The position numbers and the translations under genes were made by a program. A model generated the notes under the pieces. The model made no database searches and was not told the origin of the DNA. It was given only the letters and a program-made list of their open reading frames with translations. Shown in pieces: positions 3,363 to 60,363 of a DNA stretch of 60,465 nt. Source of the DNA: Lactobacillaceae bacterium (GTDB lineage: Bacteria; Bacillota; Bacilli; Lactobacillales; Lactobacillaceae); contig JAITPD010000029.1 of assembly GCA_031289615.1 (NCBI GenBank), forward strand, positions 1 through 60,465, written 5' to 3'. Positions within the stretch are counted from its first letter, which is position 1, and each line of letters starts with the position of its first letter.

Positions 3363-3530
3363 GTTGATCAGCGGAGCGATTCTGTCGTCGGATGACCAGC
3401 CCTTGCCGAATCTAGCCGAACCTTTTCACGCGTGCTTTAGCGCCGTGAAATTGGCGAATTATTTTGCCATTCGGCATGAATCGTGCAGGGCAAATCCGAA
3501 CGTAAAGAATCTTTAGCGAAGCTGATCAAC
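3363..3530 (+). repeat. Palindromic element A, copy 1
   Basis: 168 bases bounded by perfect inverted 10-mers GTTGATCAGC and GCTGATCAAC. Inner arms include GATTCT...AGAATC, GCCGAAT/ATTCGGC (7 bp) and TTTCACG/CGTGAAA (7 bp), topped by GTGC-TTTA-GCGC. Other copies are at 8119-8287, 30765-30931 and 35944-36112, with a partial copy at 60309-60363. No direct target duplication is evident at its edges. It lies between the tRNA-Asn unit and trxA. Seen directly by comparing the copies. Confidence 0.9.
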
Positions 3531-3643
3531 CCGAGCACAACAGAATAACCAACACACTTTGCTAAATTCATAGTTTGTTCGCTTGCTATCTTATGCTCGT
3601 GAACATACAATTAAGGAATAATATAATAAGAAGAGGTATCCGT

Positions 3644-3961
3644 ATGGCAGTCAAAGATATTAATGACCAAACTTTTGCTGAGGCAACCGCCACCGGTGTG
3701 AGTATTACTGACTTTTGGGCAACATGGTGTGCTCCTTGTAAGATGCAAGGACCAGTCATCAGCGCGTTAGCAAATCAAGTAAAAGACGTCGATTTTTTCA
3801 AGATTGATGTTGACGAAAACAAAGAAACCGCATCAGAACTTGGTATTCGTGCAATTCCAACTCTTATTATCAAAAAAGATGGCGAAATTGTGGAACGATT
3901 GACGGGTTATACGCCAGCACCGCAACTCACTGAGATTTTGAATAAATATACCGATCAATAA
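3644..3961 (+). CDS. trxA: Thioredoxin
   Basis: 105-residue cytoplasmic thiol-disulfide oxidoreductase with the redox motif WCAPC (C29 and C32). Alanine replaces the usual glycine of WCGPC. The cis-proline region AIPTLII and the DFWATWC strand are typical of the thioredoxin fold. An upstream in-frame start at 3575 exists, but I place the start at 3644 because AAGAGG precedes it and the protein then has the usual length. The aldo/keto reductase gene starts 12 bases after the stop, so the two are probably cotranscribed. The leader lies directly downstream of the B-A repeat composite. Confidence 0.93.
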   Translation: MAVKDINDQTFAEATATGVSITDFWATWCAPCKMQGPVISALANQVKDVDFFKIDVDENKETASELGIRAIPTLIIKKDGEIVERLTGYTPAPQLTEILNKYTDQ

Positions 3962-3973
3962 AGGGAAACGAAC

Positions 3974-4798
3974 ATGAAGACAACAATTTTGAACAATGGC
4001 GTTGAGATGCCGATGATTGGTTTTGGAACTGATTTGGCAAATGACACATTACCATATAATGAAGTAATGGATGCTGCAGTTGAAGCAGGGTATCGTTTGT
4101 TTGACACGGCTTCAATTTATGGGAATCAGCCACAACTTGGTGAATATTTAAAGCAATCAGAATTGCAACGCGAAGATTATTTTTTGACTTCAAAGGTTGC
4201 TCAAACTGAACAAGGCTACGAGCAAACGTTGGCAGCCTTTAAGCAAACGGCCAAAGAATTACAGACAGATTATCTAGATTTGTATGTTGTGCACTGGCCA
4301 AAGTTTGGTCCGTTCTTTGAAACGTGGCGTGCATTGGAACATTTGTATAAGGAAGGCCATGTGCGTGCAATCGGGGTTTCTAACTTTGAAGTGCATCATT
4401 TGGATCGCCTTTTGACGCAAGCAACAGTCACTCCAGCAGTTGATCAAATTGAAACGCATCCATACTTCAATCAACACGTGTTGCATGATTACTTGGGCGA
4501 ATTAAGCATTCAACATCAAGCGTGGTCACCACTTGGCCGAGGAGCTGTTTTGCAAGATCCAACGCTGCAGACTATCGCGGAACGTTACGGAGTGTCAGTC
4601 GCGCAGGTTATTTTGGCGTGGCACACCCAACAAAACGTCGCTGTGATTCCTAAATCTGGTAATCCAGAACGAATGAAGCAAAACTTGACGCTTGATTTTA
4701 AGTTGACGGTCAAGGATTTGGCGCGCATCAACGCTTTGCAACGTGGCGAACGCATCATGGGTGCTCCTGACGAAAATTACACTGAGGACAAGTGGTAA
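3974..4798 (+). CDS. Aldo/keto reductase
   Basis: 274-residue NADPH-dependent carbonyl reductase of the AKR superfamily. The catalytic tetrad is visible as D44 and Y49 in FDTASIYGN, K74 in LTSKV and H107 in VVHWP. The cofactor-binding segment IPKSGNPERMKQNL lies near the C terminus. Length and motifs match the 2,5-diketo-gluconate reductase-like group common in lactobacilli; the real substrate cannot be read from sequence. It starts 12 bases after trxA with AAGGG as ribosome binding site, and the next gene begins 4 bases after its stop, indicating a three-gene transcript. Confidence 0.93.
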   Translation: MKTTILNNGVEMPMIGFGTDLANDTLPYNEVMDAAVEAGYRLFDTASIYGNQPQLGEYLKQSELQREDYFLTSKVAQTEQGYEQTLAAFKQTAKELQTDYLDLYVVHWPKFGPFFETWRALEHLYKEGHVRAIGVSNFEVHHLDRLLTQATVTPAVDQIETHPYFNQHVLHDYLGELSIQHQAWSPLGRGAVLQDPTLQTIAERYGVSVAQVILAWHTQQNVAVIPKSGNPERMKQNLTLDFKLTVKDLARINALQRGERIMGAPDENYTEDKW

Positions 4799-4802
4799 CA
4801 CG

Positions 4803-5459
4803 ATGGTTAAGCAAGGCAGTTTTGCCCGCACTGCTAAAACGAAACGGGTTCGTTCAATCAAGCAGAAGAAGCAAACTGACAATTCTGCTAGCATTGACGA
4901 TAAACAAATTAATGATTATCTAATTGTGCGCTACCATTTGACGCAACACGCAAAGCAAGCGCCGGTCGTGGAAGAGACGATGTTACGTTTTTTCAATGTG
5001 TTTATGAGCCAAGACGAATCAGAAAATGTGTGGCGAGTGGATGTGATGTTACCCAAGACATTGGTGGCAATTGGAAATCAAGTTCCGTGGCAATTTTATT
5101 ATTTGGTTGCGAATGAATGGGAGCGGTTTGCCCAGTTCCTAGCAAAAGAAGTTCCGGCAGTTCCTCTGCAAGTTAAAAAAATTGTGACTGACCTGACTGA
5201 AACACAAACGGTGGAAATTTTTGCTAAGCATCTTGCGTTGAACTGGTTCATTAGTCAATTTGGTGCGGATCAAGCGAAGTTAACGCAAATTACAGAAGCG
5301 CAGGTGCAAGCCTTGCAGGAAAGTTTTATTGCTGAAGAAAAAGTGGCTTGGGACAAGGTGGCAATTGTTTATTCACAGGTTGAAAAGGTCGTCGTTGGTA
5401 ACGAAACTGACGATAAGACGAAGCAATGGATTGCGGACTTAGAAAAAATAAATATTTAA
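4803..5459 (+). CDS. Conserved-looking hypothetical protein
   Basis: 218-residue soluble protein with a basic N terminus (MVKQGSFARTAKTKRVRSIK) and a mixed acidic remainder rich in Val, Gln and Glu. There is no signal peptide, membrane span or recognisable motif. The frame is open further upstream inside the aldo/keto reductase gene, but the ATG at 4803 follows GAGGACAAG at usable spacing, so I choose it. It is the last gene of the probable trxA transcript, and the tRNA promoter begins 13 bases after its stop. I do not recognise a family; its steady codon use matches the neighbours and supports a real gene. Confidence 0.8.
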   Translation: MVKQGSFARTAKTKRVRSIKQKKQTDNSASIDDKQINDYLIVRYHLTQHAKQAPVVEETMLRFFNVFMSQDESENVWRVDVMLPKTLVAIGNQVPWQFYYLVANEWERFAQFLAKEVPAVPLQVKKIVTDLTETQTVEIFAKHLALNWFISQFGADQAKLTQITEAQVQALQESFIAEEKVAWDKVAIVYSQVEKVVVGNETDDKTKQWIADLEKINI

Positions 5460-5472
5460 TTGGTAAAAGTAA

Positions 5473-5501
5473 TTGACATTTAGTTTTCTACTTGGTAAGA
5501 T
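5473..5501 (+). promoter_or_regulatory. Promoter of the tRNA cluster
   Basis: TTGACA (5473-5478), 17-base spacer, TAAGAT (5496-5501), 37 bases before tRNA-Leu. Confidence 0.8.
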
Positions 5502-5538
5502 ATATAAGTTGTTTAAGCCAAACAGGCAAGACATCTAT

Positions 5539-5621
5539 GCGGATGTGGCGGAACTGGCAGACGCGCAGGATTTAGGTTCCTGTGTCCTTGTGGCGTGCAG
5601 GTTCGATTCCTGTCATCCGCA
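5539..5621 (+). tRNA. tRNA-Leu(TAG)
   Basis: 83-base class II tRNA. Acceptor GCGGATG pairs with CATCCGC, discriminator A. The anticodon stem CAGGA/TCCTG carries loop TTTAGGT with anticodon TAG. A long variable arm and the T loop GTTCGATTC are present. First of three tRNAs from one promoter. Confidence 0.95.
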
Positions 5622-5635
5622 TTTATATCTATCAA

Positions 5636-5708
5636 GCCGACTTAGCTCAGTTGGCAGAGCACTTCACTAGTAATGAAGGGGTCGCTGGTTCGAATCCAGT
5701 AGTCGGCA
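5636..5708 (+). tRNA. tRNA-Thr(AGT)
   Basis: 73 bases. Acceptor GCCGACT pairs with AGTCGGC, discriminator A. The anticodon stem CTTCA/TGAAG carries loop CTAGTAA with anticodon AGT. An A at the wobble position for Thr is seen in lactic acid bacteria. Confidence 0.95.
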
Positions 5709-5748
5709 TTGGCTTGATAAATATGAATAGCCATATTAAATATTTTAT

Positions 5749-5822
5749 GCACCTGTAGCGCAACTGGATAGAGTGTCTGACTACGAATCAGAAGGTTGCA
5801 GGTTCGAGTCCTGCCAGGTGCA
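5749..5822 (+). tRNA. tRNA-Arg(ACG)
   Basis: 74 bases. Acceptor GCACCTG pairs with CAGGTGC, discriminator A. The anticodon stem TCTGA/TCAGA carries loop CTACGAA with anticodon ACG. Wobble A34 would be deaminated to inosine by TadA. Confidence 0.95.
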
Positions 5823-5840
5823 TTAAGATAAGATAGATAA

Positions 5841-5880
5841 GAAAAGGGGGTCGGATTTCCGGCTCCTTTCTCTTTTTTTA
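5841..5880 (+). terminator. Terminator of the tRNA cluster
   Basis: GAAAAGGGGG/CTCCTTTC stem with inner CGG/CCG around ATTT, followed by a T-run of seven. Confidence 0.7.
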
Positions 5881-5916
5881 TATTACTAAATAATCTATGA
5901 AATGATGTAGGCGAAA

Positions 5917-7893
5917 ATGTTCAATAAAATTAAATCTTTTAAATTACCATTGCTAGCTTTAATTACCCTAATGATGGGCTTTTTAACCACATGGCTCTGG
6001 CAAGTTATGGAAAAACGCATATTGATGAGATCAGGAGCTTTAGTGTATCAACAGTGGCACAAAGCTTTTCTCAATGAACTGATCAATGTTTTAACGAGGC
6101 CGAGAATTTGGTTGGGAATCATCTGGCTAGCAATATTTTTTCTAGCACTCATTTTAATTTTCAATAACTTTGATTTTGCCATCGCCACTTATGGCATTTT
6201 GAGTGTGGGGATTGGAATTGCAATTTATTATAAGAACAAGTTGCGTTTCGAACCAATCTTGCCATCTGATTTAAAAGAATTGAAAAGCTTTGGGTCGTTG
6301 TTAGCGATGGTTCCTAAATGGGTCCCACTTGCGACAGTACTAACGTTTGTTGTGCTGGGTCTAATCATTGCCGGCCTGCGATTCTTACGAGTTAAAAAGC
6401 AATTGCGCTATCTAGGACTTATCAATCGGTCATTACTTCAGCGTAATCTTGTGCACGGAATTGTCACGGTCCTTTTGTTGGGAATAATTTGGCTGCCATT
6501 TGGAATTAATCAAAAGTATATTATTGATTTTTATGCAAATATTACCCGTTATAAGCCAGTCACGTATGATCAGGATGTCAATATTGAAGTGATTGGGCCA
6601 TTGCAAACTTTTTGGGTTAATCGAGTATCAACAATGATGGATCAACCGACCGGATATTCTAAAGCAACCATGAAGAAGTTAGCGAATAAATATACCCAGA
6701 TTGCGGCCGAAAATAACGCCCATAAAACGACAACTTTTAAGGGGCAAACGGTAATGTATATTTTAAGTGAGTCGCTGATTGATCCAAAGATTGTGCCAAA
6801 GCTCACGACAGATAAAAATCCAATGGTTAATATCGAACAAATTATGCAAAGCCAGGCCAGTGTTAGTGGGACGATGATTTCGGCCAGCTATGGTGGTGGG
6901 ACAGCAAATATGGAGTACATGACGCTCACGGGGATGCCGATAAACAATCTTGCTTCAACAGTGACGACGCCATATGTGCAGTTGACAGGAAATGTTAAAG
7001 CAATGCCTAACATTACGAACCTCTTTGATGAGAAAGCTGTTCTACATCCATTTGTAGGAACGATGTACAACCGTCAAGAATCTTATCGCGAAATGGGAAT
7101 TGATAATTTTTACACAACTGATTCAAAGAGTGCGGGACCGCTCAAGCAACTTGAGAAGTTTCCAGGGGGCTACACCAAAGACAGCGCTGCATATGATGAT
7201 TTGTTAAATTTGGTGTCGACTAATTCTAATAAGAGCCAGTTTTTACAGTTGATGACGATGCAAAACCATTTGGGCTACGACAATAAGAGTTATCCAGCTG
7301 AATACCGAGTTGATATCACTGGTAAGGTACCAAATGCAGATAAGAGTGCAATGCAAACGTATTTGGAAGGTGTGAATGCCACTGATATTGCGACGAAAGA
7401 TTTGATTGACAAGCTAGATAAGTTGAGTCGCCCGGTAACAATGGTATTCTATGGTGATCATTGGCCAGTCGCCTTTAGTTATATGGATCCCAAAAAGGAA
7501 GAGACAGGTATTTTGACGCATTCGACGCCGTACTTTATCTATCAAAATCCTGCTGCGAAAAAAGTAAATGGCACAGGTGAATTAAACAAGAATCATAGTT
7601 ATTCTGCGCCAAGTGACTTTGCAAGTGAAATGCTCACTGTTTCGAATGCCAAGGTTTCGCCGTATTTTGCACTAGAGCAAAGGTTTAACAAGTTGATTCC
7701 GACGATTGCTAATTATACGCGGTCTGAGAATGGACAGCTTCAATTTGTTGATGCGAAAGGCAAGTTGATTGACGAAAACAAGCTGACTAAGAAGCAAAAG
7801 GCGTTGCTGCATGATTTGCGTTTGGCTCAATATGATGCTGCAGAAGGTGAAAATTATTTGACCAAGCTGGATTTTTACAAGATAACTAAATAG
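5917..7893 (+). CDS. Lipoteichoic acid synthase-like sulfatase-fold membrane enzyme
   Basis: 658-residue protein with about five N-terminal membrane spans (residues 12-200) and a large extracellular sulfatase/alkaline phosphatase-fold domain. Metal and nucleophile positions expected of LtaS-type glycerol phosphate transferases are visible: E285 in SESLIDP, the candidate nucleophile T329 in GGGTANMEY, H451 in QNHLG and D514-H515 in FYGDHWP. These enzymes polymerise glycerol phosphate from phosphatidylglycerol onto a glycolipid anchor at the cell surface. The domain continues to residue 658 with a Lys-rich end. It stands alone between the tRNA cluster terminator and its own terminator at 7906. 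Whether it is the main LTA synthase or a primase/paralogue cannot be told here. Confidence 0.85.
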   Translation: MFNKIKSFKLPLLALITLMMGFLTTWLWQVMEKRILMRSGALVYQQWHKAFLNELINVLTRPRIWLGIIWLAIFFLALILIFNNFDFAIATYGILSVGIGIAIYYKNKLRFEPILPSDLKELKSFGSLLAMVPKWVPLATVLTFVVLGLIIAGLRFLRVKKQLRYLGLINRSLLQRNLVHGIVTVLLLGIIWLPFGINQKYIIDFYANITRYKPVTYDQDVNIEVIGPLQTFWVNRVSTMMDQPTGYSKATMKKLANKYTQIAAENNAHKTTTFKGQTVMYILSESLIDPKIVPKLTTDKNPMVNIEQIMQSQASVSGTMISASYGGGTANMEYMTLTGMPINNLASTVTTPYVQLTGNVKAMPNITNLFDEKAVLHPFVGTMYNRQESYREMGIDNFYTTDSKSAGPLKQLEKFPGGYTKDSAAYDDLLNLVSTNSNKSQFLQLMTMQNHLGYDNKSYPAEYRVDITGKVPNADKSAMQTYLEGVNATDIATKDLIDKLDKLSRPVTMVFYGDHWPVAFSYMDPKKEETGILTHSTPYFIYQNPAAKKVNGTGELNKNHSYSAPSDFASEMLTVSNAKVSPYFALEQRFNKLIPTIANYTRSENGQLQFVDAKGKLIDENKLTKKQKALLHDLRLAQYDAAEGENYLTKLDFYKITK

Positions 7894-7905
7894 TTTGAGC
7901 TAGGT

Positions 7906-7934
7906 AAAAGAGATCGGCTTGCTGGTCTCTTTTA
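7906..7934 (+). terminator. Terminator of the LTA synthase-like gene
   Basis: AAAAGAGA pairs with TCTCTTTT across a 12-base loop. Element B copy 2 starts 9 bases later. Confidence 0.85.
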
Positions 7935-7942
7935 TTGTAGTT

Positions 7943-8115
7943 TTGGTCATTTTTCACTTGCGTAGTGGCTTTTCGATAAAGATAGTAAGTGGCGACACGG
8001 TCCCATTCGACTTTTAATTTCGGTAGCCGAAATTTAGTCGAATTGGTGCCGCTACCTCGCGTTATCACCTACTATCATCATCTCAACCCACCACGCTTTG
8101 AATAAAATGACTAAG
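7943..8115 (+). repeat. Palindromic element B, copy 2
   Basis: 173 bases aligned end to end with 3182-3350. The arms GATAGTA/TACTATC, GTGGCG/CGCTAC and ATTCGACT/AGTCGAAT are the same. The tip is AATTTCGG-TAG-CCGAAATT, a perfect 8-bp hairpin that shares no sequence with the tip of copy 1. Element A copy 2 starts 3 bases later. Confidence 0.85.
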
Positions 8116-8118
8116 TTT

Positions 8119-8287
8119 GCTGTTCAGCGAAGCGATTCTGTCGTCGGATGACCAGCCCTTGCCGAATCTAGGCGAAACTTTTCACGCGCGCTTTAGTGCC
8201 GTGAAATTGGCAAATTATTTTGCCATTCGGCATGAATCGTGCAGGGCAAATCCGAAACGTAAAGAATCTTTAGCGGAGCTGATTCGC
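8119..8287 (+). repeat. Palindromic element A, copy 2
   Basis: 169 bases closely matching 3363-3530. The ends have drifted to GCTGTTCAGC and GCTGATTCGC, but the inner arms GCCGAAT/ATTCGGC and TTTCACG/CGTGAAA remain. The tip reads GCGC-TTTA-GTGC, which keeps four pairs through reciprocal changes relative to copy 1. It lies about 70 bases upstream of the ctsR promoter. Confidence 0.9.
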
Positions 8288-8355
8288 ACAACAGCTTCAA
8301 ATTTCACAACTATTACTTTTTCACCTAATAATTAGGTTATCTTCGCGAATTCTAT

Positions 8356-8361
8356 TATAAT
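8356..8361 (+). promoter_or_regulatory. -10 box of the ctsR-clpC operon
   Basis: TATAAT directly upstream of the CtsR box. The -35 region is weak. Confidence 0.6.
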
Positions 8362-8363
8362 TA

Positions 8364-8380
8364 AGTCAAGATTGGTCAAA
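8364..8380 (+). promoter_or_regulatory. CtsR operator
   Basis: AGTCAAGATTGGTCAAA matches the CtsR heptad repeat consensus RGTCAAANANRGTCAAA at all but two positions. It begins 3 bases after the -10 box, where bound CtsR would block initiation. This makes ctsR-clpC autoregulated and heat-inducible. Confidence 0.85.
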
Positions 8381-8413
8381 GATTTACGATAAAATAGATT
8401 TAGGAGGTATCAA

Positions 8414-8893
8414 ATGGCTGAAAAAAACATGTCAGACATCATCGAAGCCTATCTTTTGCAGCTACTTGCCGGAGAAACGCGCACTGAAATTCAACGTTCA
8501 GAGCTTGCGCGGAGATTTGATGTTGTACCTTCACAGATTAATTATGTTATCAATAGCCGATTTTCAATGCGCAACGGCTATATTGTTGAATCGAAACGAG
8601 GTGGTGGCGGATACATTCGGATTGAAAAGGTATCGTTACTCCAAGAGCATGATTGGATTGACCAGTTGATGCATGAGATTGGAGCGCATATTACGCCACG
8701 AACTGCGCAGAAGATTTTGAGTTTATTATTAGATGAAAAATTTATTACGCGCCGTGAAAGTGAATTGACAATGGCGATGCTGAATCGTGAAGCCCTTGAT
8801 GTTGGAAATGTTGAGGTTTCAGACGTGATTCGCGCTCAATTGTTAAAAAGCTTCTTGAACCGACTTAGATTTGAAAAAACAAAGGAGTCCTAA
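8414..8893 (+). CDS. ctsR: Transcriptional repressor CtsR
   Basis: 159-residue repressor of class III heat-shock genes. The N-terminal winged helix (residues 1-75) contains the SQINYVINSRF recognition segment. The tetra-glycine wing RGGGGYIRI is the thermosensing loop known in CtsR. The C-terminal dimerisation half ends FLNRLRFEKTKES. AGGAGG lies just upstream of the ATG. The first gene of the operon, it overlaps the clpC ribosome binding site and its stop is one base before the clpC start. The operator at 8364-8380 indicates autorepression. Confidence 0.95.
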   Translation: MAEKNMSDIIEAYLLQLLAGETRTEIQRSELARRFDVVPSQINYVINSRFSMRNGYIVESKRGGGGYIRIEKVSLLQEHDWIDQLMHEIGAHITPRTAQKILSLLLDEKFITRRESELTMAMLNREALDVGNVEVSDVIRAQLLKSFLNRLRFEKTKES

Positions 8894-8894
8894 A

Positions 8895-11375: not shown

Positions 11376-11433
11376 AATACAATTGCTGTAAGAAAAAATT
11401 AATAAAAACAATTGTCAATTTTGTTGTTCTGTA

Positions 11434-11470: not shown

Positions 11471-11514
11471 TGAAATAAAGATATTGAACTTCATAGGAAA
11501 ATCTCAAAAAAATC

Positions 11515-11576: not shown

Positions 11577-11577
11577 A

Positions 11578-30764: not shown

Positions 30765-30931
30765 GTTTATCAGCTCCGCTAAAGATTCTTTACGTTCGGA
30801 TGGCCCTGCACGATTCATGCCGAATGGCAAAATAATTTGCCAATTTCACGGTGCTAAAGCACGCGTGAAAAAGTTCGCCTAGATTCGGCAAGGGCCGGTC
30901 ATCCGACGACAGAATCGCTTCGCTGATCAAC
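30765..30931 (-). repeat. Palindromic element A, copy 3
   Basis: Inverted relative to copies 1 and 2. The ends are GTTTATCAGC and GCTGATCAAC. Read on the minus strand the tip is GTGC-TTTA-GCAC, a fully paired version of the G-T-containing tip of copy 1. Directly after it, TAAATGACCA (30932-30941) is the outer end of element B, so B seems to have been lost except for its terminus. It lies between the sortase gene and pepO. Confidence 0.88.
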
Positions 30932-31000
30932 TAAATGACCAATTAGCATAGTAACTTAACTAGCGCAAAGCTTAATTATAAACAAGAAACGGGTGCTCAT

Positions 31001-35943: not shown

Positions 35944-36112
35944 GTTTGTCAGCTTCGCTAAAGATTCTTTACGTTTCGGATTAGCCCTGCACGATTCATG
36001 CCGAATGGCGAAATAATTCGCCAATTTCACGGCGCTAAAGCACGCGTGAAAAGTTTCGGCTAGATTCGGCAAGGGCTGGTCATCCGACGACAGAATCGCT
36101 TCGCTGAACAGC
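35944..36112 (-). repeat. Palindromic element A, copy 4
   Basis: Inverted copy of about 169 bases, ends GTTTGTCAGC and GCTGAACAGC, inner arms conserved. It lies 20 bases after the adhE stop and before the only good terminator (36190-36217), so it is probably transcribed in the adhE 3' untranslated region. After it, TTGGTCATTTCATTCAAAACG at 36121-36141 matches the outer end of element B in minus orientation, a truncated B. Confidence 0.9.
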
Positions 36113-36120: not shown

Positions 36121-36140
36121 TTGGTCATTTCATTCAAAAC
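36121..36140 (-). repeat. Element B end fragment
   Basis: TTGGTCATTTCATTCAAA compares with TTAGTCATTTTATTCAAA, the reverse complement of the end of element B copy 2. Two mismatches in 18. Only the end remains. Confidence 0.55.
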
Positions 36141-47091: not shown

Positions 47092-47421
47092 ATGAAAATG
47101 GTAATGGCCATTGTTCAAGATAAGGACGCAAATAAATTAGGTTCTGAATTTGTTAAGCACGAGATTCAAGCAACTCGGACCGCTACATCAGGAGGATTTT
47201 TGCGTTCTGGGAATACAACTTTCCTGGTTGGTGTAGAAGACGAACGGGTTGAAGAAGTTTTGGATATTATTAGAACGACGGCACATGCCCGCAAGCAATT
47301 TATGACACCAGCTGCCAGCCTTGATTTGTCAATGGAAGCAACGTCAGCAATGCCGCTGGAAGTCCAAATCGGTGGAGCAACAGTCTTTATTCAAAATATT
47401 GAGCAGTTCCATCAGTTTTAA
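47092..47421 (+). CDS. darA: Cyclic di-AMP receptor, PII-like (DarA/PstA)
   Basis: 109-residue PII-like trimeric protein that binds cyclic di-AMP. The family signature ATRTATSGGFLRSGNTTFLVGVED contains the ligand-binding T-loop region. Length and position between tmk and holB match YaaQ/DarA. CTGGAGG precedes the ATG. Its downstream role is not established for the family in general. Repeat C copy 1 starts 4 bases after its stop. Confidence 0.93.
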   Translation: MKMVMAIVQDKDANKLGSEFVKHEIQATRTATSGGFLRSGNTTFLVGVEDERVEEVLDIIRTTAHARKQFMTPAASLDLSMEATSAMPLEVQIGGATVFIQNIEQFHQF

Positions 47422-47424
47422 AAC

Positions 47425-47537
47425 AGAGCATGAAGGAACGGTTTTGTGTGAAGCGCGATGATAAGTGAAGTTCTTAGAATCGACTGGTTCAAAGTTCCGT
47501 AAGGCGTTTAAAACAGAGCATTAAGGAACGCTTTTGC
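47425..47537 (+). repeat. Repeat C, copy 1
   Basis: Two direct repeats of AGAGCATKAAGGAACGSTTTTG (starting 47425 and 47515) flank a core of about 68 bases that contains GATGATAAGTGAAG, TTCTTAGAATCG, GTTCAAAG and GTAAGGCGTTT. The core is largely identical to 51390-51453. It fills the darA-holB gap. A hairpin TTTTGCG/CGCAAAA follows at 47532-47550. Confidence 0.75.
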
Positions 47538-47575
47538 GGGCAACGCAAAATATTGAAAAGAAAGTGTGACGTGCG

Positions 47576-50325: not shown

Positions 50326-51318
50326 ATGAGTACATTAGTATTAGGTGGAGCTGGTTATATTGGCTCACACATGGTTGATTTGTTGTTATCACAAGGACGT
50401 GAAGTGGTGGTAGTGGATAATTTGGCAACGGGTCATCGCCAAGCCGTTCCAGCACAAGTTCCTTTCTATGAAGTTGATATTCGTGATAAGAAAGCTTTGT
50501 CAGCAGTATTTGAGAAAGAAAACATCCAACAAGTCGTGCATTTTGCTGCATCATCAATCGTGCCGGAGTCAATGGCAGATCCGCTTAAGTATTTTGACAA
50601 CAACACTGCTGGAATGATCGCATTGTTGGAAGTCATGCTTGAACACAATGTGAAGCAAATCGTCTTTTCTTCAACGGCGGCAACTTATGGTGAGCCAGAA
50701 GAAAGCCCAATCAAAGAGACAACTCCGCAAAAGCCAATCAATCCTTATGGTCTTTCAAAGCTACAAATGGAACAAATTATGGCGTGGGCAGACAAGGCGT
50801 ATGATTTGAAGTGGGTAGCGTTGCGTTACTTCAACGTTGCCGGGGCGAAGGCTGACGGTTCAATTGGTGAAGATCATCCGACTGAAACGCATTTGGTGCC
50901 AATTATTTTGCAAACGGCATTGGGTCAGCGCAAAGAGATTATGATGTATGGGGATGACTATAATACTCCTGATGGCTTTAACGTTCGTGATTATGTGCAG
51001 GTGATGGATTTGGCTGACGCGCACATCTTGGCTTTGGATTATTTGGCTAAGGGTAATGAATCAAACCAGTTCAACCTTGGGACAGCCAATGGTTATTCTG
51101 TGAAGCAAATGGTTGAAGCTGCGCGTGAGGCTACTGGAAAAGAAATTCCAGCTAAGATTGGGCCTCGCCGTGCCGGAGATCCGGATTCATTGGTGGCTGA
51201 TTCAACAAAGGCGCGTGAAGTGCTTGGTTGGGCGCCTAAGTACGAATCTGTGCAAGAAATTATTAAGACGGCTTGGACGTGGCATCAAACGCATCCAAAT
51301 GGCTATGAAGATAAATAG
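50326..51318 (+). CDS. galE: UDP-glucose 4-epimerase
   Basis: 330-residue short-chain dehydrogenase-fold epimerase interconverting UDP-glucose and UDP-galactose. The NAD motif is GGAGYIGSH (7-15), catalytic residues are S116-T117 and Y141-x3-K145 (YGLSK), and the [17 protein letters not shown] end region is typical. AAAGGAG precedes the ATG. It has no other galactose genes near, so it probably serves polysaccharide or teichoic acid synthesis. The stop codon lies at the beginning of repeat C copy 2. Confidence 0.95.
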
Positions 51319-51477
51319 AGCATGTAATATCGGTTTTGAGCAACGCGAAAAATTGAACTGACGAGATAAGGATATTATGTTCATTAAGTGAAACGTGATG
51401 ATAAGTAATCTTCTTAGAATCGCTTAGTTCAAAGATATGTAAGGCGTTTGTGATAGAGCATGTAACAACGGTTTTGA
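51317..51477 (+). repeat. Repeat C, copy 2
   Basis: Starts within the galE stop codon. AGAGCATGTAAyAnCGGTTTTGA occurs at 51317 and 51455 as flanking direct repeats. The core at 51390-51453 (GTGAAACGTGATGATAAGTAA, TTCTTAGAATCG, GTTCAAAG, GTAAGGCGTTTG) is shared with copy 1. The left part holds about 48 extra bases compared with copy 1. Confidence 0.75.
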
Positions 51478-51491
51478 ATAATAGGTATAAG

Positions 51492-52283: not shown

Positions 52284-52441
52284 TTAATTTAGTAGAATTA
52301 TTGCAAAATATAATCAGGGGACTATTGGATTTTGGAAGCTGGATTATCCAGCCTCTGATGTGGATTGTAATAGTTTGTTTGTTTATTGAAAACCACAGAT
52401 TAAAAAATAAAATTAAAGAACAAAAACATGATAAAACATAA
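52280..52441 (+). CDS. Coupled 53-residue membrane peptide, immunity-like
   Basis: TTG start overlapping the preceding stop (TTGA), with GAGGGGACG as ribosome binding site inside the upstream gene. The product begins MINLVELLQNIIRG, has one strongly hydrophobic span (WIIQPLMWIVIVCLFI, about 21-36) and a lysine-rich end (NRLKNKIKEQKHDKT-like, starting ENHR). The pattern fits a small single-span protein protecting the producer or acting as holin-like partner. A strong terminator follows at 52466. Confidence 0.65.
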   Translation: MINLVELLQNIIRGLLDFGSWIIQPLMWIVIVCLFIENHRLKNKIKEQKHDKT

Positions 52442-52465
52442 CTATATGAATAGTTTAATTTATGT

Positions 52466-52500
52466 AAAGTTTGCTGGTGCCACACTTAGCAAGCTTTTTT
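52466..52500 (+). terminator. Terminator of the secreted protein locus
   Basis: AAAG-TTGCT-GTG pairs with CAC-TAGCAA-CTTT in a long interrupted stem, followed by TTTTTT. Confidence 0.85.
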
Positions 52501-52597
52501 ATTTATTATCTGTGTAACTGCTTCCTGCATTTTTTAAATACAGTAAATCAGGATGATTTCGTGATTGACCTTTAATGGTAATAATGTTTAAATTTTG

Positions 52598-52603
52598 TAT
52601 AAT
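52598..52603 (+). promoter_or_regulatory. -10 box of the ABC transporter gene
   Basis: TATAAT preceded by TTTTG. The -35 is poor. Its position excludes the upstream start codons of the ABC gene's open frame. Confidence 0.5.
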
Positions 52604-52637
52604 TAAACTTTATATAGAAGCGAAAGTTGGAACGCTC

Positions 52638-54197: not shown

Positions 54198-54203
54198 CGA
54201 GCA

Positions 54204-54245
54204 AAAAATGCTAGAGCCCAAATCAACGGGTTCTAGCATTTTTAA
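54204..54245. terminator. Bidirectional terminator
   Basis: AAAAATGCTAGAGCCC pairs with GGGTTCTAGCATTTTT (one G-T pair) between convergent genes. Confidence 0.92.
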
Positions 54246-54250
54246 ATATT

Positions 54251-55204: not shown

Positions 55205-55274
55205 TAAATTTTCCTTTCTTTAAATCCAGTAAACTACCCCTCCATTATAACAGCTTTATTGAGTCTGCTTGGCG

Positions 55275-55303
55275 TTGGTGGTTTCGCATGTAAACAATAT
55301 AAT
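55275..55303 (+). promoter_or_regulatory. Promoter of a 46-residue membrane peptide gene
   Basis: TTGGTG (55275-55280), 17-base spacer, TATAAT (55298-55303). Confidence 0.55.
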
Positions 55304-55325
55304 TACGGCCGTTGCATTTAAGAAA

Positions 55326-55466
55326 ATGAGTAAGGTCATTGCGGTTTTGTTAATCGTGGCTTCGGCGTGTGTGATCTTGCCGTTGGTTGGTAATTGGATT
55401 TCTGTAGTTTTGTATATCGTTGCTTTTGCATTGATTTTGACAAAGGGCAACAATCCAGCTAACTAA
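55326..55466 (+). CDS. Small two-span membrane peptide, 46 residues
   Basis: MSKVIAVLLIVASACVILPLVG followed by NWISVVLYIVAFALILTKG gives two hydrophobic spans with a basic start and NNPAN end. The frame opens further upstream at 55269, but the promoter at 55275-55303 places the transcript start near 55310, so ATG 55326 is chosen; TTAAGAAA is a weak ribosome binding site. A good terminator at 55485 completes a tiny transcription unit. No family recognised. Confidence 0.5.
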   Translation: MSKVIAVLLIVASACVILPLVGNWISVVLYIVAFALILTKGNNPAN

Positions 55467-55484
55467 ATTTTAGGTCTAAAATTG

Positions 55485-55516
55485 TCGAATTCCGTTTTTG
55501 GGGTTCGATTTTTTTG
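55485..55516 (+). terminator. Terminator of the 46-residue peptide gene
   Basis: TCGAATTCC pairs with GGGGTTCGA (two G-T pairs), followed by TTTTTTT. Confidence 0.8.
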
Positions 55517-55611
55517 GTTGTAAAAACATTCACACAAATTTCAGAAAATACACATAATGATAATATACAATGACGTTGTTGTAAAAAAATTAAATATTCG
55601 AGGTACATATT

Positions 55612-56010
55612 ATGAAATTACACACTAAGTTCATTGCTAGCACATTTTGTGCATTAGCGTTGTTAGGTGGCGGAACCGTATTAGCCAATACATGGACAGT
55701 TTCTTCTGTTTTGGTTCCTAGACTAGGTGGGGGTATTATAACTCAAGAGACGAATACAAAGACGACAAATTCAAATGTGGCGTCATTTAATGGTGATGCT
55801 ACACCAAACGCTTTAGGATATGCTGTTATGATTGTTAATTCAAAGGGAGAGGCGCGCTCTAGTTACACCAGTCTTAAAAAGGATGTAACGACGCAAGCTG
55901 CCAATAATACGGGAACAATCGGGTATAATTACCCAGCATACATTCACTCAAATATTGCAGAACCAAATAGTAACCAGACTAAGTTTCACTTCTCAGCAGA
56001 CGCGCAGTAG
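55612..56010 (+). CDS. Small secreted protein heading an ABC operon (DUF2712-like)
   Basis: 132 residues with a signal peptide (KLHTKFIASTFCALALLGGGTVLA, cleavage near LANTW). The mature part of about 106 residues is rich in Asn, Thr and Ser with no cysteine, contains YAVMIVNSKGEARSSYTS and ends FHFSADAQ. It reminds me of DUF2712-type secreted proteins encoded next to multi-membrane-protein ABC transporters; that assignment is from memory and unverified. GAGGT precedes the ATG and a TACAAT (55566-55571) may be its -10. First gene of a five-gene operon with tight spacing. Confidence 0.7.
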   Translation: MKLHTKFIASTFCALALLGGGTVLANTWTVSSVLVPRLGGGIITQETNTKTTNSNVASFNGDATPNALGYAVMIVNSKGEARSSYTSLKKDVTTQAANNTGTIGYNYPAYIHSNIAEPNSNQTKFHFSADAQ

Positions 56011-56020
56011 TTGAATTTGT

Positions 56021-56545
56021 ATGATTAGCTTATTAAAAACAAAGAGTCAACTAATGTATTGCATACTTGCCGCATTATCAGGAATTAGTTTTTTTGTGAG
56101 CGCAGATGTTAATACTGATATTCCAACCCAATTGTTATATAGACATATCACGTACTATTTAACGGTTCCCTTACTAGTAATAGTATGCGCTACTAGATTA
56201 CACAAAAATATGCACATTAAAAATAACTTGATTACTCGATTAGGGTACGTAAAGTTTATTGTTTTTCAATATGCAACTAGTTTTTTAATTTTACTTTGTT
56301 TCACGCTGATGCAATATATGGTGCTGTTTTTGTATGGGAATATTGCTCATGGTAGTGGTTACAATATGGCTGTATTCGCACTGATAGTTAATATTATTTT
56401 GTATATTAGTATCTGGTTGATTTTAAATTTAATTACATTCGGTGTTAATGGAAGTATTCTTGCTATAATCTGTGTTTTCTTAGGATTGGTAGTTCATTAC
56501 GCATATTATTTATTTCCTGTAATTTCTTATTATCCAGCTCGATAG
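56021..56545 (+). CDS. Integral membrane protein of the ABC operon (five spans)
   Basis: 174 residues with about five hydrophobic segments and short basic loops (ATRLHKNMHIKNNLITRLGYVKF). No ATPase or enzymatic motif. The arrangement resembles one permease of ABC-2 type exporters linked to secreted peptides. It starts 10 bases after the preceding stop without a clear ribosome binding site, so it may depend on coupling. Very AT-rich. Family not recognised. Confidence 0.7.
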   Translation: MISLLKTKSQLMYCILAALSGISFFVSADVNTDIPTQLLYRHITYYLTVPLLVIVCATRLHKNMHIKNNLITRLGYVKFIVFQYATSFLILLCFTLMQYMVLFLYGNIAHGSGYNMAVFALIVNIILYISIWLILNLITFGVNGSILAIICVFLGLVVHYAYYLFPVISYYPAR

Positions 56546-56557
56546 ATCGGAGTCTAA

Positions 56558-57409
56558 ATGCGAATTATATGGTTTTCAAAACTCAAATATTTACTTGCAG
56601 TAATTGTCTTAAATATTATTGCAATTTCTGATGTATTCCAAGGCATTAGAGAGAATGGGCCGGCATTGAAGGCAGTTAGCCAAAAAGCAGGAAATGAAGG
56701 GGGAATGATTTTATTCTATCAAATTCAAAGTGGTTATGCATCGGGGTTAATTCAGTTTGTGACAGGATTTTTAGGATACATAATTATTCCGATGATTTTT
56801 TCGCAACAGGTAATTAAATCAAGAATTACGAAATCAGATTCAATGTTGATTACGCGGGTGAATGGGAATAAAAATTACTTATTTTCAGCATTCTACACTA
56901 ACGCTGTGCTCACTTTCTTTGCCTTTTTATCTGCAGAACTAATGCGGCTAGTACTGATTGTCATATTCTATGCACCAATTCATTTGAATCAAACAAGTTG
57001 GTACTTAACAAAGAGTATGCAATATTACATTTTTAAAAATGGACTCGCTAATTTGGTTGCCTTTGTCTTATTGTTTTGTATTGGACAAGCTTTGTTTTCA
57101 AGTTTAGTGCTATCAATCGGGCTTTATCTAAAGAATCATGTGGTCTATTTATTGACGGGGTTAGCAGTGGCGTTGATTGGGATTGTCGTTCCTGGATTAG
57201 TTGGACCGCAGATAATTCAACATAATAGTTTTTGGACGTCGATTCTTTCAATTAATGCTCTCATTCAACCAGCCTTAAGTACAGTTGGAATGTGGGTTTC
57301 AAAGTACAATGGTGGCCTAGTTTGGCTTGGATCGTTTGCATTTTATGGATTAATTACAACAACATTATTAGCAATCAGAATCAAAATTGATGCTGGTAAG
57401 CATAACTAA
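56558..57409 (+). CDS. Integral membrane protein of the ABC operon (about seven spans)
   Basis: 283 residues with about six or seven spans. The first extracytoplasmic loop (residues 27-62, FQGIRENGPALKAVSQKAGNEGG) and cytoplasmic loop QVIKSRITKSDSMLITRVNGNKNY are characteristic of ABC-2 permeases, where the Arg-containing loop contacts the ATPase. CGGAG precedes the ATG and the gap to the previous gene is 12 bases. Likely pairs with the ATPase gene that follows. Confidence 0.72.
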   Translation: MRIIWFSKLKYLLAVIVLNIIAISDVFQGIRENGPALKAVSQKAGNEGGMILFYQIQSGYASGLIQFVTGFLGYIIIPMIFSQQVIKSRITKSDSMLITRVNGNKNYLFSAFYTNAVLTFFAFLSAELMRLVLIVIFYAPIHLNQTSWYLTKSMQYYIFKNGLANLVAFVLLFCIGQALFSSLVLSIGLYLKNHVVYLLTGLAVALIGIVVPGLVGPQIIQHNSFWTSILSINALIQPALSTVGMWVSKYNGGLVWLGSFAFYGLITTTLLAIRIKIDAGKHN

Positions 57410-57421
57410 CAGGTGGATAAA

Positions 57422-58033
57422 ATGCTATTAGAATTAAAAAATGTGAGCAAAAAATTTAATCAACAAATTGTGCTAGACGACGTTGATTTTAGTGTTGATA
57501 CTGGTAAGTTGATTCTGATTCGAGGAGCCAATGGTTCTGGTAAATCTACAATTTTCAAATTAATAGTTAAAATTATCGAGGCTGATAGTGGTGAAATTGT
57601 GATCGATGATAATGCTAATATTGGAGCTTTAATTGAAAATCCAATGTTTATGGAAGATTCGAATTTCAAGAATAACATGAAGTTTTTGGCAAAGATTAAA
57701 AACAATTTTGATGAGAGTGTCATTAAGGATTTAACTAAGCGCCTCGGGTTGGATTACGACAACAAGCTTAAATTGAGCAAATACTCGATTGGAATGCGCC
57801 AAAAAGCAGGCATCATTCAAGCGATCATGGAAGAGCAAAACCTAATATTGTTAGATGAACCAACACGCGGATTGGATCAGGATGCTTTACCTAAATTTTT
57901 TGCGATCATTAATGAATTAATCGCGAACGACAAAACGGTTATAATTACGTCTCATGAATTTTTGAATGATTTAAATTTTGATGCCACATATGAGTTGAAA
58001 GAGGGAAAGTTATCATTAAAACAGGAAAATTAG
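57422..58033 (+). CDS. ABC transporter ATP-binding protein
   Basis: 203-residue ATPase. Walker A GANGSGKS (35-42), signature YSIGMRQK (121-128), Walker B LILLDEPTRGLD (141-152) and switch histidine IITSHE are all present. The YSxGMxQ signature is typical of ATPases of drug and bacteriocin self-protection exporters. The frame opens with GTG 57413, but AGGTGG there serves as ribosome binding site for ATG 57422. Its partners are the membrane proteins on both sides. Confidence 0.9.
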   Translation: MLLELKNVSKKFNQQIVLDDVDFSVDTGKLILIRGANGSGKSTIFKLIVKIIEADSGEIVIDDNANIGALIENPMFMEDSNFKNNMKFLAKIKNNFDESVIKDLTKRLGLDYDNKLKLSKYSIGMRQKAGIIQAIMEEQNLILLDEPTRGLDQDALPKFFAIINELIANDKTVIITSHEFLNDLNFDATYELKEGKLSLKQEN

Positions 58034-58050
58034 GAAACCAAAGTTTATAC

Positions 58051-58482
58051 TTGGTTCTAGTTTTGATGGGAATGCTTATTTTCATTAAAAATCCAGATAC
58101 ATTTGCCAATGTAAGATATGGAATTGATCATTCAACTGTATTTAGCGTACTTTTTTCAATTATTTTAGGATCGATTGAACTTATTATGTTACTAAGCTAT
58201 TTTACTGACTTTTGGAATATCAGTGAGTTAGTTAATATTCGCGCTGGAAAAATGAAACGCGGATTGATTGAGTTAAAAATTATTGCGCCATGTCTGCTGT
58301 ATCTTTTAGGTGTAAATTTTTTGCTGGACCTGCTACATAAAAATATTTTATGGGGTGGATTATTAAGAATTGGAATAACTACGGTGTTGGTAGTCATTGC
58401 GGATCGATTGATTAAGCAAAAAATGTTTTTTGGTTGGGTTGCATTGATGATCATTATAATTGGACGTGTTTTTATATTTTAA
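58051..58482 (+). CDS. Membrane protein closing the ABC operon (four spans); start uncertain
   Basis: 143 residues from a TTG at 58051, with about four hydrophobic segments and the charged loop NIRAGKMKRGLIELK that resembles the ATPase-contacting loop of the other permease. The frame is open upstream: reading from 58012 adds IIKTGKLGNQSLY, a natural-looking basic N terminus before the first span, and GAGGGAAAG (58001-58009) is well placed for an ATC (58012) or ATT (58015) start. No ATG, GTG or TTG occurs in that extension, so a non-standard start is possible. Ends at a weak hairpin terminator. Confidence 0.65.
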   Translation: MVLVLMGMLIFIKNPDTFANVRYGIDHSTVFSVLFSIILGSIELIMLLSYFTDFWNISELVNIRAGKMKRGLIELKIIAPCLLYLLGVNFLLDLLHKNILWGGLLRIGITTVLVVIADRLIKQKMFFGWVALMIIIIGRVFIF

Positions 58483-58484
58483 TC

Positions 58485-58517
58485 GAGCAGTGGAAAATTA
58501 TTTCTGCTGCTTTTTTG
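58485..58517 (+). terminator. Probable terminator of the ABC operon
   Basis: AGCAG and GAAA pair with TTTC and TGCT across ATTA, followed by a T-run of six. Confidence 0.55.
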
Positions 58518-58583
58518 CTGTCTTATTGGTAGCAGAGGTGGCTTTCTTAGGCAATGTGACTTCAAAAGGTAAAGATTGTTTAA

Positions 58584-58611
58584 TTGTTCAATCATTTAGC
58601 TTCTGTATAAT
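58584..58611 (+). promoter_or_regulatory. Promoter of the lactate permease gene
   Basis: TTGTTC (58584-58589), 16-base spacer, TATAAT (58606-58611). Confidence 0.65.
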
Positions 58612-58671
58612 GGTAAGTGAACGTAATAATCAGTTTTTTTAAAATATAAAATAAGTTGTAGGAGAGTTTTA

Positions 58672-60270
58672 ATGATATTAATTGCATTGCTGGCAGTTTT
58701 GTTACCTTTAATATTTTTGGCGTTAATGAATTTGCCTGCCGCTAAGGGAATGGCAATTAGTTCTGCGGTAGTCTTGGTTGTGGCATTTATTTTTTGGAAA
58801 ATGCCCTTGAAAGTTCTCAGCGCGTCTATCTTACAGGGAATCCACAAGACGATTCCAATCTTATGGATCCTGTTTGGTGCCCTGATCATGCTAGAAGTGT
58901 TGCGACATACCGGTGCCATTCAACGGATTAATCAAGGATTTACATCTGTCACTTCAGATATGCGCGTGTTGACAATTATCATTGCCTTTTTGTTTGGCGC
59001 TTTAATCGAAGGTGTCTCTGGCTTTGGAACGCCGGCCATGGTGACAGCTCCATTGTTGATGGCGTTAGGATTTCGGCCAATGGCAGCCGTGACTTTGGCG
59101 TTGGTGGGTGACTCGACCTCTGCTTCGTTTGGTGCGGTTGGAACTCCTTTGACGGTTGGATTAAGCAATATCGCCAGCGGGCCTGACTTTATTCAAAAGA
59201 TTGGCGAGATGATTACTAGAATTGATTTGACAGCTGGTGCGATTGTGCCAACGTTAATTATTTTTTTGCTCGTTAAATTTTTTGGTAACAACGAAAAGCA
59301 AAATCGTGAATGGCTTGAAATTGTGCCGTGGACTTTGTTTATCGGAATTGCGTACACAGTTGTTGCTGTAGGAGCAGTTTTGTTTGTCGGATACGAATTT
59401 GCTTCGATTTTGACGCCTTTAGTGATGCTGGTAGTGGCGATTGCTTCGGTCAAATTTAAATTTTTACTACCTAAGTCAGTCACGCAAAATCCATGGACGG
59501 AAGCGCGAGATCCAAAAGTTAAATTGGACAATGATGAAGCTCCAAAAATGTCGTTGTTAGTCGCTTGGACACCTTACTTGTTGGTTGTTGTGTTATTGTT
59601 GCTTTCACGGACAGTCGAACCATTGCGCGTGTTTATGAACAAGTACGTTGACCTATCGTGGAACCATATTTTAGGATTCAAAGATATTAGCTCGGCGTGG
59701 CAATTTTTGTATTCGCCAGGAACAATCTTGGTATTGTCGGCTATCTTTGGCCTCTTGATTCAGGTTCGCAACATTAAACCAATCGTGCGTCAATCTAAAT
59801 CAGTTTTGAAAGGCATTGGGCCGACAGCATTTACGTTGGCTGTCACTTTGATCATGGTGCAAGTCTTTAGTAATTCAGGCTTGAACGCTGGGTATCTCGT
59901 CAGCATGCCGACGTATATTGCAAACACAGTAGCGTCATTTGCGGCACCAGTCTGGGTGTTCATCGCTCCATTCCTTGGAGAACTGGGCGCGTTTATTACT
60001 GGAAGTGCAACGGTTTCAACTTTAACGTTCGCACCAATTCAGTACAATGTGGCTCAACAAGCGGGAATTTCAACGAACATTATCTTGGCTGTGCAAGTGA
60101 TTGGAGCGGCCGCTGGAAATATGATTTGTGTGCATAATATCGTTGCAGCCAGTGCCGTGGTTGGTCTTGGTGGTAATGAGGGTGCAATCCTACGTAAGAC
60201 AGCAATTCCAGCGTTGATCTATGCTGTGTTGCTTGGAATCACGGGCTTTGTGATGCTGAATTTTTTCTAA
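58672..60270 (+). CDS. lctP: L-lactate permease
   Basis: 532-residue LctP-family transporter with about 13 membrane spans. Family stretches include ALIEGVSGFGTPAMVTAPLLMALGF, GDSTSASFGAVGTPLTVGL, FLGELGAFITGSATVSTLTFAPIQ and AAAGNMICVHNIVAASAVVGL. It carries lactate (and glycolate) with protons; in a lactic acid bacterium it may export or exchange lactate. GTAGGAGAG precedes the ATG and a promoter lies 60 bases upstream. A partial element A follows 38 bases after the stop. Confidence 0.94.
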   Translation: MILIALLAVLLPLIFLALMNLPAAKGMAISSAVVLVVAFIFWKMPLKVLSASILQGIHKTIPILWILFGALIMLEVLRHTGAIQRINQGFTSVTSDMRVLTIIIAFLFGALIEGVSGFGTPAMVTAPLLMALGFRPMAAVTLALVGDSTSASFGAVGTPLTVGLSNIASGPDFIQKIGEMITRIDLTAGAIVPTLIIFLLVKFFGNNEKQNREWLEIVPWTLFIGIAYTVVAVGAVLFVGYEFASILTPLVMLVVAIASVKFKFLLPKSVTQNPWTEARDPKVKLDNDEAPKMSLLVAWTPYLLVVVLLLLSRTVEPLRVFMNKYVDLSWNHILGFKDISSAWQFLYSPGTILVLSAIFGLLIQVRNIKPIVRQSKSVLKGIGPTAFTLAVTLIMVQVFSNSGLNAGYLVSMPTYIANTVASFAAPVWVFIAPFLGELGAFITGSATVSTLTFAPIQYNVAQQAGISTNIILAVQVIGAAAGNMICVHNIVAASAVVGLGGNEGAILRKTAIPALIYAVLLGITGFVMLNFF

Positions 60271-60308
60271 ATAAAACTTTGTGCTAGTTGTGAATTGTTG
60301 TCCTATTG

Positions 60309-60363
60309 GTTGATCAGCTTCGCTAAAGATTCTTTACGTTCGGATTTGCCCTGCACGATTCAT
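60309..60363 (-). repeat. Palindromic element A, copy 5 (broken)
   Basis: The first 55 bases match the minus-strand form of element A (GTTGATCAGC, GATTCTTTACGTTCGGAT, GCCCTGCACGATTCAT), then identity stops at 60363. What follows to the window end is unrelated, so the element is either truncated or interrupted by another sequence. Confidence 0.75.

Follow-up and report, generated by a model that had tools for sequence, protein, structure and literature searches.

Palindromic sequences of about 168 bp recur between genes in the window, the stretch of 60,465 nucleotides that we analysed, and they raise the question of whether their fold is maintained as RNA, as an earlier note had proposed, or as DNA. 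The repeats are multiple and modular in make-up; the gaps that hold them are longer than in a copy-free relative, target duplications accompany them above chance, their pairing is maintained, and the core of a second hairpin arm (B) is present in three lineages. We consider it probable that they belong to a composite mobile element that resembles a MITE and carries no genes, and that its palindromes are maintained as DNA, through template switching combined with selection favouring a hairpin whose unpaired bases are specified.

The window contains four full copies of the 168-bp sequence, here called arm A, at the positions first assigned to them, in both orientations and between long open reading frames (ORFs). 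These copies are pairwise 92–96% alike or complementary over 129–164 nt. The inverted 10-base ends initially described for A (GTTGATCAGC/GCTGATCAAC) held up only in part: they are exact in the first copy alone and do not mark the end of the element, with pairing going further outward. A fifth copy had been considered broken. It is actually a long form of A interrupted by the contig end, and the 102-nt module that directly follows it and runs to that end recurs at the corresponding place in the tip of nine complete copies from our sample and is also seen at eight other contig ends or close to them. The features of the window are as follows.

3182 to 3348, + strand: unit 1, arm B (core 3217 to 3312), placed by its end motifs
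3363 to 3530, + strand: unit 1, arm A, short form
7943 to 8114, + strand: unit 2, arm B (core 7978 to 8078)
8119 to 8287, + strand: unit 2, arm A, short form
7941 to 8310, + strand: unit 2, approximate extent against the empty site in genome G015, ends read by eye
30765 to 30931, - strand: unit 3, arm A, short form, flanked by the genes for sortase and pepO
30931 to 30942, - strand: unit 3, remnant of a B end alongside (2 mismatches)
30955 to 30966, - strand: unit 3, left outer terminal repeat (2 mismatches to GTGCTAGTTATG)
35944 to 36112, - strand: unit 4, arm A, short form
36121 to 36132, no strand assigned: unit 4, remnant of a B end alongside (2 mismatches)
60281 to 60292, - strand: unit 5, right outer terminal repeat (the + strand reads GTGCTAGTTGTG)
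60309 to 60363, - strand: unit 5, arm A, right part of the long form (the supposed broken copy)
60364 to 60465, - strand: unit 5, tip module of the long form, 102 nt, stopping at the contig end

Upstream of unit 3, a TTGAAT-TATAAT pair is spaced by 13 bases, and we therefore claim no promoter there.

Searching the 2.01-Mb genome that the window comes from (G000) with a 23-mer of the left arm of A, allowing up to 3 mismatches, yielded 174 sites, compared with 0 for the reversed control, so the earlier extrapolation to hundreds of copies per genome was about right. Further investigation revealed a larger composite, gene-less unit, of which A is just the right arm. Arm B lies to the left of A in 55 out of 97 sampled units, the other 42 being without a full B, and A was found within 400 nt of a piece of B in 80 out of 86 cases. 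The outer ends of the composite element resemble GCG..GTGCTAGTTRTG and lie outside both arms. Both arms behave as modules: from one copy to the next an arm can be present or absent, short or long, or chimeric. Some forms have the outer ends and neither a full A nor a full B, down to about 43 nt, and unit size extends from there to about 600 nt or more. In the plan that we propose, a full unit would consist of an outer terminal inverted repeat (about GCGTNGTGCTAGTTRTG), an optional B hairpin, a spacer, the A hairpin and a second outer repeat, and an AT-rich target duplication of 8–9 bases would flank some copies. The units are noncoding, as had been suggested: 2 out of 97 overlap an ORF of at least 100 aa, and both of these ORFs span the repeat itself. 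In the sample, which was chosen to hold copies, 29% of the intergenic DNA is sequence common to at least five other intergenic regions, largely of the A/B family.

Single outer-repeat sites with at most 1 mismatch numbered 117, compared with 40 for the reversed control; both outer repeats (up to 3 mismatches) were found in only 23 of the 97 units. A perfect 8-base target duplication flanked 5 of these 23 units versus 3 of 506 mispairings (permutation P = 5e-5), and a duplication matching at 7 or more of 8 bases flanked 7 of 23 versus 18 of 506, in a register chosen after the outer-repeat results had been inspected; 16 of the 23 units had no duplication of at least 7 of 8. In G015, the nearest relative and free of copies, comparable gene gaps were shorter in 14 out of 16 cases and longer in 2, and two empty sites could be resolved to the base level, with the duplications ATTACATA and TATAAATAA. 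The shorter gaps and the target duplications indicate that the element is MITE-like and mobile. The MITE alternative that the earlier note had named is thus favoured, acting through ends other than those it gave.

IS256-type and ISL3-type transposases are absent from both G000 and G007, a copy-rich genome of the same genus, so that neither type is retained as the parent element. Only 4 of 574 ORFs in the sample have a close paralogue, and none of these, judged by appearance, resembles a transposase. Arm A matched nothing in plasmids or phages, a G007 unit and a unit of the third lineage matched no plasmid, and the latter also matched no phage; a query approximating the element end gave four weak, scattered plasmid matches. 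An exact 19-mer of A occurred at three single sites in genome contigs, all in unrelated MAGs and about the number expected by chance, in a collection from which records near the own genome may have been left out; viral contigs contained none.

The first A copy folds far better than shuffled sequences on both strands (z = -8.85 on the + strand and -6.44 on the - strand; 0 out of 200 shuffles as good on each). The flanks of A pair copy by copy (z = -4.5, with -0.2 for the outer control), and the tip changes that preserve pairs, which had first suggested a maintained fold, are indeed present. In the 69 main-type copies of A, double Watson-Crick changes are limited to 6 or 7 pairs, because these copies are so alike. 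The maintained fold is borne out more strongly in B. Both sides had changed in 33 out of 66 pairs across 14 G007 copies and in 12 out of 20 pairs across three lineages, and in each case 0 out of 500 shuffles scored as high, under shuffle controls that correct only partly for relatedness. Between the B cores of the own genome and those of G007 there were 7 double-changed pairs, which is not above shuffles (5.8; 114 out of 500).

Selection of this fold in transcripts, as an attenuator, processing or stability element, was the proposal of the earlier note, which reasoned that G-T pairs are tolerated. We find such a role improbable. The + strand does fold strongly, and pairs taken from its fold of A show G-T cells exceeding A-C cells by 44 to 20, but pairs taken from the - fold show 24 to 34, and adding pairs from one fold alone in G007 gave 22 to 83. 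When pairs are restricted to those recovered by the folds of both strands, G-T and A-C cells are about equally rare, at 20/15 for A and 8/9 for B in the 14 G007 copies, and hand-named pairs of B in 69 copies of three lineages gave 9/14. We rejected the wobble excess as an argument for RNA function because no skew arises unless the pairs are chosen from the fold of a single strand. Position relative to genes points both ways: 21 out of 27 pattern-caught copies in G007 lie downstream of a gene in that gene's direction, at a median of 65 nt from its end, but orientation relative to neighbouring tandem genes in G000 is even (30 sense, 35 antisense). Given the bias in G007, an RNA role may exist in that genome. 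At gathering scores, Rfam models identified only tRNA and small SRP RNA in the window; G007 stretches and one own unit gave only matches far below gathering scores, the best to a microRNA family. The B core resembles the UGGGACC of the T-box riboswitch, and no T-box match was obtained for the same G007 stretches and own unit with E allowed to reach 1 or 5.

A covariance model detected B in 5 out of 28 genomes of the genus, namely four related species and the own genome. The core, common to three lineages of this one genus, is nearly identical at unpaired positions, while the outer arms differ. All 14 G007 copies keep TCC/TCC (with one exception), two A.A, CA/CTACC and TC/TG, and the TC/TG mismatch is also found in nearly all alignment rows of the three lineages. 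Within G007, conservation was 0.92 for inner-core pairs, 0.88 for unpaired bases and 0.71 for outer pairs; fixity in this genome thus extends beyond the unpaired bases to the inner-core pairs, which are equally conserved. As a doubtful suggestion, the B core, folded as single-stranded DNA, might serve as a recognition structure whose outer pairs are free to vary and whose unpaired bases (TC opposite TG, C-A opposite CT.CC, and CTCC pockets) are almost fixed; mobile palindromic elements of one genus, otherwise differing in their ends, would carry it as a cassette, and an enzyme would read it. Loss of SbcD as a permissive cause is unsupported: SbcD is above the cut-off in 21 out of 28 genomes, including the copy-rich G007, and it is below it not only in G000 but also in G015, G006, G009, G020, G025 and G026, in none of which did blastn or the covariance model find the family.

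Under the reading that we prefer, a transposase acting in trans would move the unit via its outer ends, template switching during replication would keep the arms complementary, and selection would retain a hairpin with particular unpaired bases, probably because the folded strand is met by an enzyme or by the replication machinery. Palindromes could instead be purely mutational products, perfected by template switching and spread through the ends alone. Such a mechanism is described in passages of PMC8794818, double changes occur block-wise with hardly any wobble cells, and the arms of one copy are 96% complementary to each other versus 71% between arms of different copies. We nevertheless regard this account as unlikely: mismatches and loop letters that repair would erase persist (TC/TG, CA/CTACC, A.A and TCC/TCC). 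With template switching as the only process, these conserved mismatches would be lost. An element that folds as single-stranded DNA, in the manner of REP or IS200/IS605, and is moved by a transposase that binds hairpins rather than by a DDE enzyme, would fit the near-identity of unpaired positions in the B core across lineages with differing outer arms, and would fit the G007 copies that often adjoin gene ends. It is quite unlikely, however, given the 42 units without a full B, short forms that hold little beyond their ends, and duplications of 8–9 bases, which fit DDE transposition.

The A/B family thus reads as a new modular MITE-like family. Its strong covariation without strand preference, beside nearly fixed unpaired bases, provides a natural test of the assumption that covariation proves RNA function, and repeats of the MITE type that give such signals could wrongly be taken for riboregulators. 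Contig breaks in draft genomes of the genus may also be due to the family.

Among the matches listed, the literature on repeats and MITEs of Weissella or lactic acid bacteria held no description of the A/B family, which could still have been described. Palindromic repeats that also lie between genes and measure roughly 170 bp include YPAL of Yersinia and EFAR of Enterococcus faecalis, a likeness of description. Passages of PMC3049150 present BOX of Streptococcus pneumoniae as modular, composite, strongly folded intergenic repeats, thought to be MITEs, at high copy number in a 2-Mb genome. The likeness of the A/B family to BOX is one of plan, namely composite intergenic modules in varying number, strong folding and high copy number. 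The same passages describe boxB modules in tandem, report transcription of BOX and liken its ends to ISSpn2, whereas the ends here match no known IS in the searches made and the hairpins are nested or side by side. Bacterial MITEs such as QMITE2 of Coxiella, as characterized in parts of PMC10969869, are gene-less and have terminal inverted repeats, direct repeats of 7–9 bases, AT-rich intergenic targets and stable stem-loops. The A/B family has the same kinds of features; unlike these MITEs, it has units of up to about 600 nt or more, arms that covary strongly from copy to copy and a conserved unpaired core, and its parental IS was not found among IS256 and ISL3 types. REP/BIME sequences, with a REP unit of 20–40 bp in excerpts of PMC3733652, are also high-copy intergenic palindromes, possibly met as a folded single strand. 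By contrast, the elements described here range from about 43 to more than 500 nt and carry outer repeats and target duplications.

The window is an entire contig (C44) of the draft genome G000. Element A, the right hairpin arm of about 168 nt, has four full copies in it, all present where the earlier note placed them. The copy at 60309-60363, which had been described as broken, is a long form with an extra module at its tip. Searching the 2.01-Mb draft assembly of this genome (G000) with a 23-mer from the left arm of A yielded 174 sites with three or fewer mismatches (93 forward and 81 reverse), and the reversed 23-mer, used as a control, yielded none. The 40 stretches picked for holding copies, together with the window (783,641 bases in total), contain 77 full A copies (39 on the plus strand and 38 on the minus strand) and 46 partial pieces; densities from this sample are biased upward because the stretches were chosen to hold copies. 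Identity to the first A copy was 87–100% for 69 of the 77 full copies, and the remaining eight (72.6–76.0%) kept the outer parts with a different centre. A third form, with 98–102 additional bases at the tip, accounted for nine complete copies. Nine contig ends, the window end included, lie inside or near this 102-nt tip module, so the draft probably understates the number of copies. Among them are the ends in L061, L064, L078, L081, L090, L092 and L098 and the window end. A second intergenic repeat family (GAGCATNNANNAACGGTTTTG-like) occurs in the window at 47417-47546 and 51309-51486 and in up to eight other intergenic regions of the sample.

Element A is half of a larger unit. A second palindrome, arm B, is positioned to its left: 80 of the 86 B pieces had an A piece within 400 nt, in the same direction in 76 of these 80 cases. 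By a coverage criterion, B is present in 55 of 97 units and absent from 42; six of these 42 retain both B end motifs and 19 retain one, and among 181 repeat-free intergenic controls the corresponding counts were 1 and 27. Sharing between units fades about 400 nt to the left and 300 nt to the right of the A anchor. B also occurs in longer forms, and chimeras with a B left side and an A right side exist. One stretch (L228, contig G000:C27, approximately 1501-2220) holds a composite in which outer ends about 720 nt apart enclose one B and two A arms that point in opposite directions. In a second genome of the genus, G007, convergent inverted pairs of the B hairpin lie a few hundred bases apart (L119, L120, L128, L129 and L133), and in L126, around 373-552, additional hairpin sequence interrupts the left side of the B core, a part that is conserved elsewhere.

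Insertion through the outer ends is supported by the traces it left. The 22-nt flanks beyond the 168 nt of A pair copy by copy, each in its own letters, with a mean duplex energy of −5.98 versus −4.76 when partners were permuted (z = −4.5), and the sequence 18–40 nt out gave no pairing signal (z = −0.2). By PepO identity to G000, the nearest relative is G015 (77%), followed by G009 (75%), G006 (74%) and G007 (72%). G015 is largely syntenic with the window, and neither blastn at E 0.001 nor covariance model R1, which we built on 12 G007 and 12 own B cores, finds a copy there. Among 86 units with two flanking ORFs, both neighbours were adjacent for 16 within the 0.48 Mb of G015 examined; the gene gap was shorter in G015 at 14 of these 16 sites and longer at two. 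We inspected the sequences of twelve of the 16 gaps and read two of them to the base. Comparison of occupied and empty sites gave ATTACATA-GCGTATTGTGCTAGTTATG ... CATAACTAGCACACCGC-ATTACATA at site 44 and TATAAATAA on either side at site 68. Both outer repeats were found at three or fewer mismatches in 23 of 97 units. A perfect 8-base duplication flanked 5 of these 23 versus 3 of 506 mispairings, and a duplication of at least seven of eight bases flanked 7 versus 18 of 506 (permutation P = 5e-5, with the register chosen after inspecting the outer repeats); 16 of the 23 had no duplication of at least seven of eight bases. At some sites the outer ends occur without a full A or B, in forms as short as about 43 nt. 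The second unit in the window begins about 7 bases past a terminator common to G015. Terminator-like sequences of the neighbouring gene (rho-independent, by eye) lie within about 100 nt to the right of many units, as in the region of L084 and L077.

Blastn searches of 59 related genomes, including 27 from the genus, did not detect element A; a long unit used as query matched G007 in short B-core stretches (best E 2.8e-4). A B-core 18-mer, at one mismatch or fewer, had 106 sites in G000, 26 in G007 and one in G365; of the 397 genomes of the family, the remaining 394 had no site. R1 at E ≤0.1 (E-values are rough) matched 109 sites in G000, 81 in G007, seven in G013, three in G003 and one in G027; the remaining 23 genomes of the genus gave no match. 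Under stricter filters, among the nine candidates scored per genome listed, 395 genomes of the order gave a match in G000 only. Five of the 11 matches in G013, G003 and G027 (the third lineage) were read: each is a long hairpin that shares the core but has near-perfect outer arms of its own. The spread is patchy, because relatives closer to G000 than G007 is lack the element; either transfer or loss may account for this.

The fold of B is maintained across copies. In 14 G007 copies (one of 15 was excluded for its core insert), we tested 66 pairs that appeared whichever strand was folded. Pairing held in 98.0% of 916 cells, each one base pair in one copy (83.4% shuffled), and both sides had changed in 33 of the 66 pairs (17.7 shuffled); covariation was 0.370 versus 0.103, with 0 of 500 shuffles as high, relatedness not being fully corrected. 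Sliding the pairs by 1–3 columns left just 6–13 double-changed pairs. Between own and G007 cores, 99.6% were paired (87.6% shuffled) and covariation was 0.317 versus 0.102 (0/500; relatedness not fully corrected); double-changed pairs (7) were not above shuffles (5.8; 114/500), and further pair types (9) were below them (11.4; 497/500). Alignment A4, fitted to the model structure, comprised 69 rows (40 own, 24 G007 and five third-lineage). It gave 98.1% paired versus 85.2% (0/500), double change in 12 of 20 pairs versus 8.1 (0/500) and covariation of 0.289 versus 0.082 (0/500; structure-fitted, relatedness not fully corrected); further pair types (19) were not above 17.9 (178/500).

Mean identity in G007 was 0.71 in outer paired columns, 0.92 in inner paired columns and 0.88 in unpaired columns: the outer stems are free to vary, and the core is fixed at paired and unpaired positions alike. 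In some copies of G007 and of the third lineage, inner pairs change jointly. TC facing TG and most of the CA/CTACC loop letters are constant in all but a few of the 63 near-complete rows, with G replacing A at two loop positions in the third lineage; G007 is the only lineage in which the two A.A mismatches never vary.

A G-T wobble read on one strand becomes an A-C mismatch when the opposite strand is read. The earlier note had proposed an RNA role from tolerated G-T pairs. An excess of G-T over A-C cells in A (44 to 20) is tied to pairs picked from the plus fold; the counts become 24 to 34 on the minus fold and 20 to 15 on the 36 pairs common to both folds (69 copies). G007 gave 8 to 9 on its 66 common pairs and 22 to 83 once pairs from one fold alone were included, and the three lineages gave 9 to 14 on 20 hand-named pairs. 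These counts therefore favour no consistent strand. Template switching, described in PMC8794818 as able to create and mend hairpins, fits the multi-base double changes with few intermediates. Alone, it would erase the persisting mismatches, which is why we propose selection on the folded form; such selection, acting on a fold with open bases, would keep them.

Relative to neighbouring genes, the 97 units were tandem sense (30), tandem antisense (35), convergent (10) or divergent (9), with 11 at stretch edges and two over mechanical ORFs; background gaps were 258 tandem, 36 convergent and 49 divergent. In 41 G007 stretches, a gene in the same direction precedes 21 of 27 pattern-caught copies, with a median distance of 65 nt from the preceding gene's end, and these copies may act at gene ends or preferentially target them. 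SbcD matched above the family cut-off in 21 of 28 genus genomes; the seven others are G000, G009, G015, G006, G020, G025 and G026. IS256-type and ISL3-type transposases had no match in G000 or G007, and 4 of 574 sample ORFs of at least 120 aa had a close paralogue. Apart from a parent, sought among IS256- and ISL3-type elements, the family has every MITE feature tested. By comparison with BOX elements (PMC3049150), it behaves as a modular, BOX-type MITE.
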